NCBI GenBank assembly: GCA_026018925.1 | Contig: JAKSZU010000008.1 | Span: 60,000,027 to 60,064,026, forward strand | Reading direction: 5' to 3' | DNA: 64,000 nucleotides | Source of the DNA: Tupaia tana | Lineage: Eukaryota; Chordata; Mammalia; Scandentia; Tupaiidae | Made by a program: the position numbers and the translations under genes | The notes under the pieces: generated by a model | Databases searched by the model: none | Seen by the model: the letters and a program-made list of their open reading frames with translations, nothing else | What the model was told of the DNA's origin: nothing | Part shown: positions 7,334 to 56,569 of the stretch, in pieces | How the letters are laid out: every line of letters begins with the position of its first letter | How positions within the stretch are numbered: the stretch's first letter is position 1

Positions 7334-7595
7334 TTTTTTTTTTTTAGAGATTTTTGCTATGGGGCATGTGCGCTTGCCAGACAGAGAGAGACAGAGAGAC
7401 AGAAAGCAAGAAATCACCCCCCGGGGGGATGGCCACGCCGCAATCCCTTCTCCTCCATTCTCCTCTCAAGATCTTGGGCACGCACGCACGCACACGCACC
7501 CGGCGTGAGTTTTAAGCCACCGGGTCCGGGACGCGAACCGTGGTTGACTACATGGGAGTCCAGCGACATAGCCATTACGTTAACTGCTGATCCCA
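7334..7595 (-). mobile_element. SINE-L(a), young copy
   Basis: Well preserved reverse-strand SINE-L with the GGGGGG/CCCCCC palindrome, 'gggcacgcacgcacgcacacgcacccgg' CpG-rich segment and an intact B-box complement. A perfect 14-bp TSD acctccatcatttt lies at 7320-7333 and 7596-7609. The retained CpGs point to a recent insertion. Confidence 0.96.
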
Positions 7596-9171: not shown

Positions 9172-9447
9172 CTTTTTTTTTCCATTTTGGACAGGGTTTT
9201 GCCTTGTGATCCTCTTGCTTTAGCTTCCCAATGTGCCACCAGGCCCAGCTATTTTAAACAGGGTCTCACTGTGTTTTCCAGGATAGCCTCAAGCTCATGA
9301 TCCTCCTGCCTAGCTTTCCCAAGTCCCTGCGATTACAGGTACAGGCCACCATGCCTGGTCTTTAGGTTAGACTGGGAACTGAACCCAGAGCTCCCATGTA
9401 ATTCCAGCCTGCAGAGCACAGTGTCTTAGTAGTGCATGTCACCACAG
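9172..9447 (-). mobile_element. composite tRNA/7SL SINE (dimeric 7SL part)
   Basis: Read on the minus strand: a tRNA-like head with B box GGTTCAGTTCC (about 9376-9386), then a 7SL-like arm ('accaggcatggtggcctgta', 'gcaggaggatcatgagcttg', 'cacagtgagaccctgttt') and a shorter second 7SL-like arm ('agctgggcctggtggcacat'), ending in poly-A. Possible TSD agagagagctctttt / agagcgagctcattt. Strongly decayed, hence old. 7SL-derived SINEs are characteristic of Euarchontoglires. Confidence 0.8.
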
Positions 9448-10548: not shown

Positions 10549-10799
10549 TACTGCCGACATTAAGCTATCACATTTATAATGTGCGAGAGAATTTTCCTTG
10601 TTCTCTTTTTTTAACGTTTTGCTTTTTTTATTTGGATATTATTTCCTTTATCTCTGAAAATTGAAATTAGAGGATGTTTAGAAAGGATTTTTTTGTCTTG
10701 TTCATTGTTTCTTTTTTCTGTCTGTACCAGTTCCTGTATTTAATGTCAAAGCTTTCCTCAAGTGACTTAAGGGATATGGATGTCTGATTCATTTTTCAA

Positions 10800-10975
10800 A
10801 TTATTTATTTCATTTTATTTATCATTAGTATTATTTTTTAATTCATTACAGAGCACATGTGCTCATAGAGAGAAACAAAGTGAGAGAGAGAAAGCAAGCC
10901 ACCAGGTCCAGGCCTTGAACCAAGTTGGCTGTGTGGGAGTCCAGCGTGTTAACCACCACACCACCTGCTGGATCC
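10800..10975 (-). mobile_element. SINE-S copy
   Basis: Tail 'atttatttcattttatttatc', GA block, 'aagcaagccaccaggtcc' and head complement. TSD ctgattcatttttcaa (10784-10799) / ctgattcattttttaa (10976-10991). Confidence 0.93.
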
Positions 10976-14770: not shown

Positions 14771-15032
14771 GGGGAACCAGCAGTTAGCATAATGGCTATG
14801 TCGCTGGACTCCCACATAGTCAACCACGGTTCGCATCCCGGACCCAGTGGCTTAAAACTCACACTGGGCGCATGTGCGTGCGTGCCCAAGATCCCGAGAG
14901 GAGAATGGAGGAGAAGGGATTGTGGCGTGACCATCCCCCCTGGGGGGTGATTTCTCGCTTTCTGTCTCTATGTCTCTCTCTGTCTGTCTGGCGAGCGCAC
15001 GCGCCCTATAGTGAAAACCTCTCAAAAAAAAA
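14771..15032 (+). mobile_element. SINE-L(a), young copy
   Basis: Near-consensus copy: 'ccagcagttagcataatggc' head, CpG-rich 'gcatgtgcgtgcgtgcccaag', C6-T-G6 palindrome and 'cgcgccctatagtgaaaacc'. A perfect 15-bp TSD aaaaattttactcat is at 14756-14770 and 15033-15047. Confidence 0.97.
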
Positions 15033-18700: not shown

Positions 18701-18983
18701 AGGGACCAGCAGTTAGCGTAATGGCTATGTCGCTGGACTCCCACGTAGTCGACCGTGGTTCAAGTCCTTTACCCGGTGGCTTAAAACTCACGCCGGGTGC
18801 GTGTGCGTGCGTGCCCAAGATCCCGAGAGGAGAATGGAGGAGAAGGGATTGCGGCGTGGCCATCCCCCCTGGGGGGTGATTTCTCGCTTTCTGTCTCTCT
18901 GTCTCTCTCTGTCTGTCTGGCGAGCGCACGCGCCCTAAAAAAAAAAGCAAAAACCTCTACAAAAAAAAAAAAAAGAAAAAGAA
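18701..18983 (+). mobile_element. SINE-L(a), young copy
   Basis: Near-consensus: 'ccagcagttagcgtaatggc', CpG-rich segment, C6-T-G6, pyrimidines, 'gcgcacgcgccct'. An extra A-run interrupts the 3' block before 'gcaaaaacctct'. TSD aagaagcacttg at 18689-18700 and 18984-18995. Confidence 0.96.
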
Positions 18984-19977: not shown

Positions 19978-20235
19978 TTTTTTTTTTTTTTTTAAGTTTT
20001 ACTACAGAGTACATATGCTTTCCAGAGAAACACAGATACAGAGAAAGGGAAGATAATAAAGCACCATCCACGGGGGATAACCGCAACTTAGTCCCCTCTC
20101 CTTCATTCTCCTCTTAGAATTTTGGGCATACATGCTCACATACTCAGCATGTAGTTTAAGTCACTGGGTCCAGGACTCAGACCACACAGTTGGCCATATG
20201 GGATCCAGCCACTTCAACCACCAAACCATCTGTTG

Positions 20236-20238
<3 letters not shown>
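19978..20238 (-). mobile_element. SINE-L(b), first of a stacked pair
   Basis: Poly-T, 'tactacagagtacatatgct', 'aataaagcaccatccacggggg' (b-type body), head complement 'atatgggatccagccac' ending 'ctgttggcc'. It lies directly before a second copy in the same orientation. Confidence 0.92.
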
Positions 20239-20267
<29 letters not shown>

Positions 20268-20505
20268 GTTTTTTCTAAGGGTATGTGTGCTCCCCAGAGA
20301 AAGAGAGAGAGAGAGAGAGGGAATTTACCCTCCAGGGAAGATGGCCACCTACAACCCATTCATTCACCTCCGTTCTTCTCTCAGGATTTTGGGCATACAT
20401 GCATCTGTGTCCAGCTTGTTTTTCAAGGCAGTGATTCTGGGACTTGGACCACACAGTGGGTCATGTGTATCCCACCACTTTAACCTCTATCTTACCTGTT
20501 GGCCC
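20239..20505 (-). mobile_element. SINE-L(b), second of a stacked pair
   Basis: Long poly-T (about 29) where its tail meets the head of the neighbour, '(ga)n', 'gggaatttaccctccagggaag', head complement ending 'cctgttggccc'. The pair shares one TSD: accactgttgatt at 19927-19939 and 20507-20519. Confidence 0.92.
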
Positions 20506-20750
20506 AACCACTGTTGATTTCTATTAGCATATATTAGCTTTGTCTAGTCTGAACTTCATATAAATTAAATCAGATACTTTATGATGTCTTTTATTCAACA
20601 TGATGTTTAGAGACTCAATCATGTTTTATGTATGTAGTTTGTCCTTTTTATTGCCAGCCAATGTTCCCATTTTGTGACTACACTACTATTTTTTTTATCA
20701 ATTTTCCTATTGGTGGATATTAATGAGTGGTTGCTCTCATTACATCTGCA

Positions 20751-22111: not shown

Positions 22112-22380
22112 TTTTTTTTTTTTTTTTGGACAGATGTTTGCTATAGGGCGCGTGCGTTCACCAGACAGAGAGAGAGAGACATAGAGACAGAAAGTGAGAA
22201 ATCACCCCCCAGGGGCATGGTTACACCACAATCCCTTCTCCTCTATTCTCCTCTCAGGATCTTGGGCACACACGCACACGCGCCCGGTGTGAGTTTTAAG
22301 CCACCGGGTCCGGGACGCGAACCGTGGTCGACTACGTGGGAGTCCAGCGACATAGCCATTACGCTAACTTCTGGTTCCCT
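22112..22380 (-). mobile_element. SINE-L(a), young copy
   Basis: Reverse-strand, CpG-rich ('atagggcgcgtgcgttcacc', 'acacgcgcccggtgtgag', 'gggacgcgaaccgtggtcga'). A perfect 16-bp TSD ctatttaaaatctttt is at 22096-22111 and 22381-22396. Confidence 0.97.
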
Positions 22381-28898: not shown

Positions 28899-29119
28899 GG
28901 GGGCCAGAAGGTGATGTGGTGGTTAAGGATACTGGGCACTGGACTCCCACTTGGCTGAACATAGTTCGAATTCTAGAACTGGCGTCTTGTTTTCTCATTT
29001 ATCCTCTCTTTCTCTCTCAATCTCTCACTCACTCTCTGGTGATCACATGTGCCCTATAGCAAATTAACAAATAATAACAATAATAATAAAATTAAATAAA
29101 TAATTCTTAAAAAAATTTA
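28899..29119 (+). mobile_element. SINE-S variant copy
   Basis: Head with a small duplication (actgggcactggactcccac), pyrimidines, then the L-like 'gccctatagcaaatt' followed by the S-type 'aaataaataattctt' tail. This is the same intermediate structure as 368-557. Likely TSD aaagaaggatgaagg / aaagaaagaatggaagg. Confidence 0.9.
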
Positions 29120-30176: not shown

Positions 30177-31490
30177 TAATACAAAAGTAATGATGGATAT
30201 GGCTTCCAGAATGTTAGCATGAATCAAGGCATTGGCATCAGGCTGTACTAGAAGTCATTGTATTTTTTGCCACTAGACACTTAATGTTGAAACAGGCAAA
30301 CACAATGAAAGTATTAGTTAAGAATGTTCTTGATGAAGCAGTAAAATTTAATGCTCTTATTAAATCTAAACTCTTGAGTACATGTCTTTTCAATATTCTC
30401 TGTGAAAAAAATGGAAAAGCATAAAGCACTTTTGTTTCATATTGAGGTATCATGGTTGTCTCTGGAAAAAAGCATTTGTATGATTGCTGGAGTTAAAGTT
30501 GTAATTAATCACTTTTTACTTGAAACACTATTTTTACCTTAAAGAATGTTCAACAGACAAAGTACATTATTTAAGTTTGGATATTTGGCAGATATTTTCT
30601 CAGAAATGAATTTGGTGAATGCATTGCTTCAAGAAAAACAACTAACAGTATGAATGGTCAATGATCAAGTGAAGCTTTCGAGCCACAATTAGGATTTTGG
30701 AAATTCAGTGTCTGCACTGTGAGCCTAAGAGCTTTTCAACATCTGAAAATTTATCTGAAGAAATTGATGGTGATAACCACGAATGCAGTTTTTTGGTGGT
30801 AATTGCGGAAATGTGCCAACATTCAGAAGCTCTCATCAGTTTGGGAACCAATGTTGATCAGATGGTCAAGTGATGCTACAATATTGTTCATAGATATAAA
30901 GATCTATTCAGAGTATAATAGAGGTAAATAGATTAAAAGTATGAGAGCATGAAAAGTTCTTAATAAACTGTCAGATTCTACATGGTAGTCACCTTTAAAA
31001 AGTTAGCATAATGGCTATGTCGCTGGACTCCCATGTAGTCGACCGCGGTTTGAGTCCCGGACCCATGGCTTAAACTCACGCCGGGCGCGTGTGCGTGCGT
31101 GCCCAAGATCCCGAGAGGAGAATGGAGGAGAAGGGATTGCGGTGTGGCCATCCCCCCTGGGGGGTGATTTTTCACTTTCTGTCTCTCTTTCTCTCTCTGT
31201 CTGTCTGGCGAGTGCACGCGCTCTATAGCAAAAACCTCTCAAAAAAAAAAAAGGTATTGCTTGTTGAATTTTGGTGTGATATCAAATTATCTGAAGGAAA
31301 ATAAAACTATTCAAAAGCTATTAAAACACTCCTCTCTCATCCAACCACATTTCTATGTAATACAGATTTTCTACGTATATTTCTATGAAAACAACTTAGA
31401 ATAGACTAAATGCGTCAGAAATGAGTCCAACTTTCTTCTATTAAAATTAGACGTTAAGGAGATGTGCAAAAATGTAATACAAGTATAGTG
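30177..31490 (+). pseudogene. degenerate hAT (Charlie/ZBED-like) transposase
   Basis: A broken transposase of the hAT superfamily, the class that also gave rise to the domesticated ZBED5, SCAND3 and FAM200 genes. Readable pieces in one order: NVLDEAVKF near 30325, then KALLFHIEVSWLSLEK at 30423-30470 (family signature about KALLxHTEVRWLSRGK), FGYLADIF near 30576-30599, VEFWCDI at 31263-31283 and KTLLSHPTTFLC near 31324-31359, the C-terminal hAT dimerisation region. Stops and frameshifts separate the pieces, and a SINE-L (31001-31250) sits just upstream of VEFWC. The N-terminal BED zinc finger and first catalytic residue are absent. It cannot encode an active enzyme. The antisense frame at 30238-30453 is a shadow of it. 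Confidence 0.8.
31001..31250 (+). mobile_element. SINE-L(a), young, 5'-truncated, inside Charlie
   Basis: Lacks the first about 10 nt of the head (starts 'gttagcataatggc') but is otherwise close to consensus and CpG-rich. It interrupts the transposase relic between 'cacctttaaaaa' and 'aggtattgcttgttgaa'. No clear TSD beyond A-rich sequence. Confidence 0.94.
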
Positions 31491-31619
31491 CCACTTCCCA
31501 CTGTTTTTGGTTTGGAAAAATACGATTATTCATTAAAAAAATGTTTCATACATGTTGAAATGTCACATGTTTATGGTTGCTGTTTTAAATGCATAAAAAG
31601 ATACATTATAATTTTTTCA

Positions 31620-31780
31620 AGGAATTATTTAATCATATTTATTATTATTATTTTTAGCTTGCTATACATGCACTCACCAGAGAGAGAAAGTGAGAAAGCA
31701 AACTGCCAGGTCCAGAACTCAAACCACAGTCAGCCCTGTGAGAGTCCAGCACCTTAATCACCATACCAGCTGCTGGCCCC
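31620..31780 (-). mobile_element. SINE-S copy inside Charlie
   Basis: 'tttattattattatttttag', GA block, 'caaactgccaggtccag', head complement ending 'gctgctggcccc'. TSD about acattataatttttt (31603 on) / acattataaatttct (31781 on). Confidence 0.9.
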
Positions 31781-32733: not shown

Positions 32734-32749
32734 AAAATATAGAAAAAGT

Positions 32750-33030
32750 GGGACCAGCAGTTAGCGTAATGGCTATGTCACTGGACTCCCACGTAGTCGA
32801 CCGCGGTTCGAGTCCCGGACCCGGCGGCTTAAACTCACGCCGGGCGCGTGTGCGTGCGTGCCCAAGATCCCGAGAGGAGAATGGAGGAGAAGGGATTGCG
32901 GCGTGGCCATCCCCCCTGGGGGGTGATTTCCTGCTTTCTATCTCTCTGTCTCTCTCTGCCTGTCTGGCGAGCGCACGCGCCCTATAGCAAAAACCTCTCC
33001 AAAAAAAAAAAAAAAAAAAAAAAGAAAAAA
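32750..33030 (+). mobile_element. SINE-L(a), best preserved copy
   Basis: Starts GGGACCAGCAG. A box TAGCGTAATGG (32762-32772) fits TRGYNNANNNG and B box GGTTCGAGTCC (32805-32815) fits GGTTCGANNCC, so the pol III promoter looks intact. CpG-rich 'gggcgcgtgtgcgtgcgtgc' segment, C6-T-G6 palindrome at 32911-32923, pyrimidine tract, 'cgcgccctatagcaaaaacctctcc', and a poly-A of about 25 broken by one G. A perfect 16-bp TSD aaaatatagaaaaagt is at 32734-32749 and 33031-33046. No AATAAA or T-run terminator lies within it. Confidence 0.98.
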
Positions 33031-33101
33031 AAAATATAGAAAAAGTTTTATGGAACATTCATTGAACCTATTCACTTTACAGAAGAATTAATAATGTCAA
33101 A

Positions 33102-41447: not shown

Positions 41448-41702
41448 TATTTATTGAGAGGTTTTTGCTATAGGGTGCATGCACTCACCAGAAAGACAGA
41501 GAGAGAGAGATAGAAAGTGAGGAATCATACCCCAGGGGGGATGGCCATGCCACAATCCCTTCTCCTCCATTCTCTTCTTGGGATCTTGGGCATGCACGCA
41601 CACGCGCCCGGCATGAGTTTAAGCCACCAGGTCCAGGACTTGAACCATGGTCGACTACATGGGAGTTCAGTGACATAGCCATTACACTAACTGCTAGTCC
41701 CA
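41448..41702 (-). mobile_element. SINE-L(a) copy, first of a tandem pair
   Basis: 'gaggtttttgctatagggtgc', GA block, CCAGGGGGGATGG palindrome half, 'cacgcgcccggcatgag', end 'actgctagtccc'. The next SINE-L in the same orientation starts about 10 bp later. Confidence 0.95.
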
Positions 41703-41709
41703 TATTTTA

Positions 41710-41962
41710 TTTTTTTTAAGGGAGAGACTTTTGCTATAGGGCACATGCACTTGCTGGAGAGACAGACAGGAAGAAAATGAGAAATCACCCCCCAGGGGTG
41801 ATGCCACACCACAGTTCCTTCTCCTCCATTCTCCTCTCAGGATATTGGGCATGCACGCACACGTACCTGGCATGATTTTCAAGCTGCCAAGTCCAGGACT
41901 TGAACTGTGGTAGTCTATGTGAGAATCCGGCACTTTAACCACTATGCTATTTACTGGCTCCA
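41710..41962 (-). mobile_element. SINE-L(a) copy, second of a tandem pair
   Basis: 'agacttttgctatagggcac', 'tgagaaatcaccccccaggg', 'gcatgcacgcacacgtacctgg', head complement ending 'ttactggctcc'. Older than its neighbour (fewer CpGs). Confidence 0.94.
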
Positions 41963-47639: not shown

Positions 47640-48220
47640 TCTTCACATTTCTATATAAATTTTATTACTTGTGAGTGACATAATAATTGTACATATTTAT
47701 AGGCACAGTGTAGCTTTTTTTGGTGTATGAACCCAATAGCTATGATCAAATTAGGATAATTTACATAGTTGTCACCTCAAACTTTTGTTGTTACTATGTA
47801 CTAGAAACATTTAAATTCTTCTCTCCTGGCTATTTTAAAATAGAACATAAATTATTACTAACTGTAATCATCCTACTGTGCTATAGAACATTAGAAGTTA
47901 TTCCTCCTGGGACCAGCAGGTAGTGTGGTGGTTAAAGTGCTGGACACACCAACATGGCCGACCATGGTTCAAGTCCCCGACCTGGTGGCTTGCTTTTTCA
48001 CTTTCCTTCTCTCTCTGTGTCTCTCTCTGGTCAAATTAAAAAATAAGTGGATAAATAAATAAAAATAAATAAATAATTTTTAAAAAAAGAAGTTATTTTT
48101 CCTAACTACTTACAATTTTATGTCTATTAGCAAATATCGTCCTAGTCCCCTTATCCACTAGCCTTCCCAACCTCTGATAACCACTGTTCTCTATGAGATC
48201 AATTTAAAAAAAAAATCACA
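47640..48220. mobile_element. L1 3'-UTR-like fragment split by a SINE-S
   Basis: 47640-47907 ('gtacatatttataggcacag', 'atgatcaaattaggataatt', 'gtcacctcaaacttttgttg', 'cctactgtgctatagaacattag') and 48088-48220 ('cccttatccactagccttccc', 'tctgataaccactgttctc') are consecutive pieces of an L1M/L1MA-type 3' UTR, separated by the SINE-S at 47908-48087. Confidence 0.75.
47908..48087 (+). mobile_element. SINE-S copy inside an L1 3' end
   Basis: GGGACCAGCAGGTAGTGTGGTGG head, CT tract, 'ggtcaaattaaaaaataag', (AATA)n, 'aataatttttaaaa'. TSD agaagttattcctcct (47892-47907) / agaagttatttttcct (48088-48103). Confidence 0.95.
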
Positions 48221-48221
48221 A

Positions 48222-48384
48222 GCTTTTTTAATTAATTTATTTATTGTATTGTATTGAAGTTTATTAGAGAGAAATAGAGAGATGGAAGGAAAGTGGGAAA
48301 GCAAGCTACCAGATTCAGGACTTAAACCATGGTCAGCCATGTGGGAGTCCAGCCGCGTTAACCACCACACCATCTGCCAGCCCC
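48222..48384 (-). mobile_element. SINE-S copy, stacked with the next SINE
   Basis: 'ttaattaatttatttattgt', GA block, 'agcaagctaccagattcagg', head complement ending 'catctgccagccccc'. The next element's poly-T begins directly after its head. Confidence 0.92.
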
Positions 48385-48385
48385 C

Positions 48386-48650
48386 AATTTTTTTTTTTTT
48401 TTTTTTGAGAGGTTTTTGCTATAGGGCGCGTGTGCTCGCCAGAAAGACAGAGTGAGACAGAGAGATAGAAAGCAAGAAATTACCCCCCAGGGGGGATGGC
48501 CACGCCATAGTCCCTTCTCCTCCATTCTCCTCTCGGGATCTTGGGCATGCACGCACACGCGCCTGGCATGAGTTTAAGCCACCGGACCCGGGACTCGAAC
48601 TGCAGTCTACTACATGGGAGTCCAGCAACATAGCCATTACTGCTGGTCCC
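48386..48650 (-). mobile_element. SINE-L(a), young copy
   Basis: Poly-T, 'gagaggtttttgctatagggcgcg', CCCCCCAGGGGGGATGG palindrome, 'cacacgcgcctggcatgag'. The head complement lacks a few nucleotides before 'ctgctggtccc'. Confidence 0.95.
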
Positions 48651-50345: not shown

Positions 50346-50448
50346 AGAAGAAAGGAAGAGAGACACGAGGGGGAAGAAACAAAAAAGGAAGGAAGGAAAG
50401 AAGGAAGGACAGAAGGGAGGGAAGACAGAGAGGGAAAGAAAGAAAGAT

Positions 50449-50487
<39 letters not shown>

Positions 50488-50492
50488 AAAAG

Positions 50493-50523
<31 letters not shown>

Positions 50524-50678
50524 AAGAAAGAGGAAAAGGAGAGAGAAAGAAGGAAGGAAGGAAGGAAGGAAGGAAGGAAGGAAGGAAGGAAGGAAGGAAG
50601 GAAGGAAGAGAAGGAAGGAAGAAAGAAAGAAGAAAAGGAAAAAGAAGAGAAAAGAAAGAGACAGGAAGAAAAAGGAAG
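50346..50678. repeat. 333-bp polypurine tract, (GAAA)n and (GGAA)n
   Basis: Only a handful of pyrimidines in about 333 bp. Central (AAAG)n at about 50440-50515 and (GGAA)n at about 50552-50607, with mixed units around them. Frames of 133-179 codons on both strands here are artefacts of the repeat. Such mirror-like purine tracts can form triplex DNA. Confidence 0.96.
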
Positions 50679-50695: not shown

Positions 50696-50864
50696 AGGCC
50701 AGCCAGTAGTGTGATAGTTAAGGCAGCTGGATCCCACATGGATGACTGCGTGGCTTGTGTCCTGGAACCAGCAGCTTGAGAAACATGCCTGGTGGATGTG
50801 CATGCATGCCCAAAATCTCTAGAGAAGAGAAGAGATCGCAGCCTGGCTATCCTCTATGGAGGGT

Positions 50865-55590: not shown

Positions 55591-55862
55591 TCTTTTTTTT
55601 TTAAGAGGTTTTTGCTTTAGGGCATGTGTACTCACCAGAAAGAGAGAGACAGAGATAGTGACAGTGAGAAGAAAAGTAATAAATCACCCCCTGGGTGGAT
55701 GACTACACTGTAGTCCCTTCTCCTCCATTCTCCTCTCCAGATTTTGGGCACACACACATATGTGCCTGGTGTGAGTTTCAAGCCACCATGTCCGGGACTT
55801 GGACCATGGAGAGCCATGTGGAGAGTCCAGAAATGTAACTGTTATGCTACCTGCTGACCCAC
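55591..55862 (-). mobile_element. SINE-L(a) copy
   Basis: 'agaggtttttgctttagggc', GA block, 'aaatcaccccctgggtggat', 'ttgggcacacacacatatgtgcctgg', end 'ctacctgctgaccc'. A second SINE-L follows within 15 bp. Confidence 0.93.
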
Positions 55863-55876
55863 AAGGTATACAGTTG

Positions 55877-56160
55877 TTTTTTTTGTTTTGTTTTGTTTTT
55901 GTTTTTTTTTTTTGAGAGAGGTTTTCGCTATAGGGCGCGTGCGCTCGCCAGACAGAGAGAGAGAGACAGAGAGACAGAAAGCGAGAAATCACTCCCCAGG
56001 GGGGATGACCACGTCACAATCCCTTCTCCTCCATTCTCGGGATCTTGGGCACGCACGCACACGCATCCGGCGTGAGTTTTAAGCCACCAGGTCCGGGACG
56101 CGAACCACAGTCGACTACGTGGGAGTCCAGCGACATAGCCATTATGCTAACTGCTGGTCC
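55877..56160 (-). mobile_element. SINE-L(a), young copy
   Basis: (GTTTT)n and poly-T tail, 'ttttcgctatagggcgcgtgcgctcgcc', 'gggcacgcacgcacacgcatccgg', B-box complement. Lacks the 'ctcctct' step before 'cgggatcttggg'. TSD aaggtatacagttg / aagggatgcagttt, two mismatches. Confidence 0.94.
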
Positions 56161-56569
56161 CAAGGGATGCAGTTTTGAATTAACATTATTTTCTAGGTTA
56201 AGACAATAACCCTGAATCTTCACAGATATATGACACTGTTCTCATCATCTATGATGCACAGGGCACATTTTGGTTGCCTTTCCTATACATGACAATGTAA
56301 ATTACTCTTAGAAGTATTTTATTAATATAAGAACATTGAAATATGAAGATTATAAGAAAAAAAATACCCCATAACCAATAAATTATTCATCATTGTCCAG
56401 AGGAGTTGCCTACATGGTGGATCTACCCTACTGTTCTCCCACTGTACTGACCTGTTCTCCATTCTTCATGTGGATGAGCCTTTGTCACAGCCAAGGTCTG
56501 CATATATAGGTCACCTCTTAGTACTCCCCTCTTCACCATCCACCTCCTCGCTCTCTTTCTCTGATCTAA
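56161..56569. other. unique sequence
   Basis: Nothing recognised. Confidence 0.5.

Follow-up and report, generated by a model that had tools for sequence, protein, structure and literature searches.

A young SINE-L copy in a treeshrew genome very probably belongs to the known, dominant tRNA-derived SINEs of Tupaia, beside a shorter sister form with AATAAA tails

Treeshrews reportedly carry Tu type SINEs with a 7SL/tRNA chimaeric structure, said to have been described by Nishihara, Terai and Okada in 2002. SINEs of the T- class are copied by L1 and combine internal RNA polymerase III boxes with a terminator-less genomic A tail, target-site duplications (TSDs) and a TTTT/AAAA cut. In Tupaia belangeri, the Tupaia-specific tRNA-derived Tu-SINEs2/3 make up 21% of the genome, TUS and Tu-III together form the majority of the transposable elements in piRNA clusters, the element classes in these clusters roughly track genomic frequency, and the lineage-specific Tupaia transposon sequences came from Repbase (PMC4408798). 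TUS has a poly(A) tail, a mean identity of 98% to its consensus and is seemingly still active, and antisense piRNAs target its least-paired part outside the tail, at 105-160 (PMC4408798). The distinction between T+ and T- SINEs is treated in PMC9599045, PMC11240701 and PMC8466645; both forms occur within the Ere family of odd-toed ungulates, which has T+ (EreA_0TD) and T- subfamilies (PMC11240701), and the T+ SINEs with a polypyrimidine region include Can, C, Eri-1, Tal, Dip and Ves (PMC8466645).

The stretch of DNA that was analysed (the window) is 64 kb long and lies at C1086:60000027-60064026 of a 2.948-Gb assembly. A sequence-only reading had singled out one SINE copy in it, crediting it with intact-looking A and B boxes, a poly-A of about 25 and a perfect 16-bp TSD, and all of these are borne out by the limits and parts of this target copy:

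32734-32749, + strand: left TSD, AAAATATAGAAAAAGT, matching the right copy at all 16 bases
32750-33000, + strand: 251-base SINE-L element, belonging to the youngest subfamily
32762-32772, + strand: pol III A box, TAGCGTAATGG, fitting the canonical pattern
32805-32815, + strand: pol III B box, GGTTCGAGTCC, fitting the canonical pattern
32842-32853, + strand: GC-rich arm, GGGCGCGTGTGC, which could pair with 32971-32982 (92% complementary; no covariation support)
32874-32895, + strand: purine-rich middle, GAGGAGAATGGAGGAGAAGGGA, as read on this strand
32911-32923, + strand: C6-T-G6 palindrome
32930-32967 (limits approximate), + strand: polypyrimidine (TC) tract
33001-33030, + strand: A-rich tail of 23 A, one G and six A
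33031-33046, + strand: right TSD, identical to the left

The tail at 33001-33030 contains neither AATAAA nor a T4 or TCTTT terminator. The left TSD is directly preceded by GGTTTT, so that the cut site reads TTTT/AAAA, which is of the L1 type. In a 32-copy alignment, the final base of the purine-rich middle of the target copy was the sole invariant column. The target copy is a real, young, well-formed and typical SINE.

A profile built from the copies gave 68 matches in the window, compared with a single weak match of 19 bits in the reversed window used as a control. Near-full SINE-L copies, spanning more than 150 of the 243 model positions, numbered 40, in good agreement with the roughly 41 given in the earlier reading. 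A TSD score of at least 10 was obtained for 13 of these 40 copies, compared to 13 of 776 control pairings in which downstream flanks had been exchanged; the one at 20237-19996 consists of little beyond an A run, leaving 12 convincing cases. Nine copies in the window, the target included, are young, with 2.8-6.6% non-CpG mismatch to their own consensus, while the remaining 31 are graded in divergence up to a K of about 0.9. The other eight young copies are the following:

18702-18960, + strand: second young SINE-L copy, with a 12-bp TSD
14773-15024, + strand: young SINE-L copy
30993-31241, + strand: young SINE-L copy
7344-7594, - strand: young SINE-L copy
22128-22378, - strand: young SINE-L copy
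41455-41701, - strand: young SINE-L copy
48406-48650, - strand: young SINE-L copy
55915-56161, - strand: young SINE-L copy

In four places (41455-41961, 55602-56161, 19990-20507 and 48205-48650) two SINEs are adjacent, one of them inside or next to its neighbour's A tail. A GAAA/GGAA microsatellite of about 300 bases (50346-50654) lies just upstream of the SINE-L copy at 50697.

The marks of an L1-mobilised SINE, namely the TSD, the A tail and the TTTT/AAAA cut, are present, the cut motif having been read for the target copy. As a T- SINE, SINE-L would be transcribed by RNA polymerase III from its internal A and B boxes, transcription would continue beyond the genomic A tail into the adjacent sequence, and the L1 reverse transcriptase would use the transcribed poly(A) in target-primed reverse transcription at TTTT/AAAA sites. 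Direct observations cover the pol III boxes, the A tail, the TSD, the cut motif, the number of copies and the host; we infer the transcription by pol III, the partnership with L1 and the present-day activity of SINE-L. The parent tRNA was approached by several routes. ARAGORN, in its bacterial setting, called no tRNA in the window, and Rfam gave no tRNA match there even at E 1, negatives that count against the identification proposed below. Among the eight best of 23 human tRNA genes compared in working versions, the young L head scored best with Asp (46/69) and the S head, from the shorter form described below, with Glu (45/70), other tRNAs in these best eight having more identities at lower scores.

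Both the young and the old L consensus are predicted to fold into hairpins. The fold energy of the target copy is 1.4 SD below that of its dinucleotide shuffles, 21 of 200 of which fold equally well, and the energies of the body were equalled by 33 of 300 local shuffles for the young consensus and 57 of 300 for the old. Covariation in the 12-bp stem was within the shuffle range; the stem as drawn pairs 79.9% of cells compared to at most 68.7% when slid, which is expected of a structure derived from a single sequence. With fold energies and covariation both within the range of the shuffles, the body hairpin was rejected as a conserved structure.

A shorter sister form, SINE-S, is present in 17 copies in the window and has its head in common with SINE-L. 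In SINE-S the head leads directly into the TC tract and then into a tail with AATAAA, as in this example:

47909-48090, + strand: SINE-S copy with head, TC tract, four AATAAA, T run and A tail (a T+ tail)

AATAAA was found in 16 of 17 SINE-S copies compared to 9 of 40 SINE-L copies; a terminator-like run accompanied it in 9 of the 17 S and 1 of the 40 L copies, with terminators counted leniently and some of them lying in flanking DNA. About half of the S copies therefore have the AATAAA and the terminator before the A tail that define the T+ class, and L does not. AAUAAA-dependent polyadenylation of pol III transcripts is reported for Ere and Can. TSDs scoring at least 10 were found for 12 of 17 SINE-S copies, against 8 of 323 control pairings. 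The S head is identical to the older-L head at 76 of 82 positions and to the young-L head at 63 of 82, while the best shuffled S head had 51 identities to the older-L one. In the open literature searched, we recognised no account of a T+/T- split in a Tupaia SINE family, and we claim no priority for it.

A block resembling the 3′ end of SINE-L stands before the AATAAA tail in four S-type copies (368-558, 10787-10975, 28899-29116 and 31613-31780), of which the first is given here:

368-558, + strand: S-type copy whose T+ tail is preceded by an L-like 3′ block, GGTGAGTG...CTATAGCAAA, with 28 identities to the L block over 38 aligned places

The corresponding block of the older-L consensus is GGCGAGTACATGTGCCCTATAGCAAA, with which the four copies share 24-30 identities over 36-38 places, a comparison made without a control; the likeness is weakest in 10787-10975. 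These S-type copies may be transitional between T+ and T-.

The relative age of the two forms bears on which of them came first. Among 33 long S copies in 274,835 bases, K had a minimum of 0.072, a 5th percentile of 0.07, a median of 0.159 and a 95th percentile of 0.318, and only L, not S, has young copies in this sample. With decayed as well as young copies of L set against S copies in the middle range, L appears both older and younger than S, which is suggestive given that different consensuses and regions were used and that S is shorter, so that decayed S copies are easier to miss. We tentatively propose, as an order of events that falls short of an even chance, that an L-like T- ancestor gave rise to SINE-S as a short T+ branch, through the loss of the purine middle and the gain of AATAAA and a terminator, and that S later became extinct, leaving the T- form as the active one. 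The opposite polarity, in which the T+ SINE-S is ancestral and the T- SINE-L was derived from it by gaining a purine middle and losing AATAAA, would sit well with the 76/82 identity between the S and older-L heads and with the L-like 3′ block in some S copies, but we consider it unlikely, as it is L-type sequences that make up the window's most decayed long copies (K to about 0.8), and the K of S spans only 0.07-0.32.

With respect to other mammalian SINEs, the S/L pair resembles Ere in having T+ and T- forms within one family. It differs from Ere in sequence, as judged against a working Ere consensus, and in that the T+ subfamily was the most actively amplified one in equids and rhinoceroses (PMC11240701), whereas here only L is young in the sample. 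Like Can, C, Eri-1, Tal, Dip and Ves, both L and S have a TC tract before the tail; SINE-S further resembles these polypyrimidine T+ SINEs in its AATAAA and frequent terminator, both of which SINE-L mostly lacks. When two copies of L and one of S were compared with working consensuses of Can, C, Ves, a hedgehog SINE, Ere, Sor and AfroSINE, no match exceeded 41 bases, and most matches fell within the TC tract, B box or A/T-rich tail. The Tu type 7SL/tRNA chimaeras share with SINE-L a treeshrew host and a tRNA-related part. SINE-L shows none of the 7SL parts of Tu types I and II, as it matches a working version of the Alu left arm over 10 bases at most, and these types do not fit it. A single 7SL/FLAM-like fragment was found in the 274,835 bases, at 9254-9358 of the window on the - strand (E 2.5e-8 with the working Alu left arm, E 0.81 with Rfam Metazoa_SRP); it is perhaps a relic of Tu type I/II or of an early monomer akin to Alu, or simply a copy of 7SL.

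SINE-L and SINE-S together occupy 12,748 of the 64,000 bases of the window (19.9%). Across 18 sampled stretches at round coordinates, eight from the window's own contig and ten from others, they occupy 19,477 of 109,061 bases (17.9%), single stretches ranging from 0 to 40%; this figure leaves out three starts of small scaffolds (L018-L020, with 0, 13.3 and 0%) and falls to about 15% when they are included. These shares roughly agree with the approximately 21% given for Tu-SINEs2/3, and between about one sixth and one fifth of this treeshrew's DNA consists of the SINE. For a 55-base core taken from the youngest subfamily, the genome contains 29,701 exact matches (14,756 + 14,945), compared to none for the same core reversed.

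The target copy differs from the sequence held unchanged at locus L026 at 2 of 251 positions, one of them at a CpG. Using the mammalian average of 2.2e-9 substitutions per site and year (PMC12026660), these 2/251 differences give a rough age on the order of a few million years. Among 183 long L copies in the 274,835 bases, K had a minimum of 0, a 5th percentile of 0.013 and a 95th percentile of 0.446, with young L over-represented since this set includes 30 loci picked by an exact 55-mer. The 30 copies selected in this way, a choice that favours close copies, showed non-CpG mismatches at 1-7 of 156-162 positions in the first 198 columns, their consensus being 198 columns long and ending inside the TC tract. 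The A box is present in 29 of these 30 loci and a perfect B box in 14.

Taken as a whole, including its T- mode, the best explanation, to which we assign a probability of about 0.9, is that among the tRNA-derived SINEs of treeshrews (Scandentia, Tupaia) SINE-L is the dominant one and that it falls within the described Tu-SINEs2/3. The two agree in a treeshrew host, a tRNA-derived origin, a share of about one fifth of the genome, a poly(A) tail and a young member of low divergence; they differ in that Tu-SINEs2/3 are known from T. belangeri and the present species is another Tupaia. The likeness is one of description rather than a base-level comparison. The youngest SINE-L subfamily, that of the target copy, is most likely TUS, again matched by description and not by bases, and the older L copies and SINE-S would belong to Tu-III or other subfamilies. 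L, rather than S, fits TUS, since no S copy in the sample is closer than 7% to its own consensus, and the position given for the centre of TUS, about 105-160 bp (PMC4408798), agrees with a length of about 250 bp plus tail. The pairing profile of the SINE-L consensus lends no support to this equation, as 105-160 was not its least-paired stretch outside the tail, in a test whose folding program and consensus differ from those of PMC4408798 and which concerns a feature that does not define the family.

The family is thus very probably already known and the target is a young copy of it. Of the sequence-only reading, the dominance of a tRNA-type SINE and the young, well-kept state of the copy hold, while its view that the type was unfamiliar is not supported, given that Tupaia-specific tRNA-derived SINEs are published (PMC4408798); the families that it had excluded did not include those of treeshrews. 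The alternative that SINE-L stands apart from the Tu-SINEs of T. belangeri, as a SINE not yet described and peculiar to a single treeshrew lineage, draws on the comparison being by description only and on the absence of a 20-mer of the copy from the literature searched, in which such sequences are rarely printed. We regard this as very improbable: a second family would need to fill about 15-18% of the genome beside or instead of the 21% of its congener, and the divergences of L span from near 0 to above 0.6, a range that makes the family look older than one species.

The host was placed by a cytochrome b family search of the assembly, which found 21 places, one of them on a 16,812-base contig (C1198). 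Translated with the vertebrate mitochondrial code, this cytochrome b differs at 7 of 379 positions from a Tupaia tana record, at 8 of 379 from the nearest T. montana records and at 26 of 379 from Dendrogale, and at 46 from the first non-treeshrew listed, a shrew. Treeshrews take the first 31 of the best 120 matches among 7,999 proteins scored, with 7-26 differences of 379. These distances put the host within Tupaia, near T. tana and T. montana. Moles (suggested by Tal, as a T+ SINE with a TC tract), hedgehogs, solenodon, pangolin and colugo had been considered as hosts, and the literature searched (PMC7547651, PMC12026660, PMC6009670, PMC8288019 and PMC9859602 included) pointed to none; the cytochrome b was decisive. 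The 20 other cytochrome-b-like places are probably nuclear copies or pieces of them, on contigs that include C220, C419, C420, C308, C864 and C231, the one on C220 being nearly full length. MIR copies in the window, found with a working consensus (best E 3e-15), fit a mammal. A host other than a treeshrew, with C1198 as a contaminant, is barely credible: the host call does rest on a mitochondrial gene and C1198 is the only stand-alone mitochondrial contig, but the same assembly holds the 20 further cytochrome-b-like places (some of them pieces of one copy), its tRNA-SINE share matches Tupaia, and the 7SL-like fragment of the window, although perhaps just a relic of 7SL itself, would agree with Euarchontoglires, the only mammals with well-defined 7SL SINEs (PMC7245038).

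Searches in other sequence collections gave no match to the SINE among viral contigs or phage records, and among prokaryote genome contigs only one 21-mer, in a Bacteroidia MAG, with flanks unlike the SINE. A Pfam search of 147 of the 237 ORFs, mostly outside the SINEs, returned two families with one member each (E 0.0014 and 0.0074), which were taken as chance. Translations of the SINE match at least 95 proteins (50 + 45 listed), each from one ENA contig, mostly of 500-1000 bases, where the same contig may match on both strands; these contigs are probably animal (host) DNA in mixed-sample assemblies or metagenomes.

What had been taken for an unknown SINE is replaced by a very probably known and very abundant treeshrew SINE. 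If the tentative origin of SINE-S from an L-like T- ancestor is true, SINE-L may be held on the T- route by its purine middle, a potential pairing partner of the TC tract (the tau signal in T+ SINEs). The two forms are a natural T+/T- pair with near-identical heads in one genome, which would allow the determinant of the poly(A) route to be tested.
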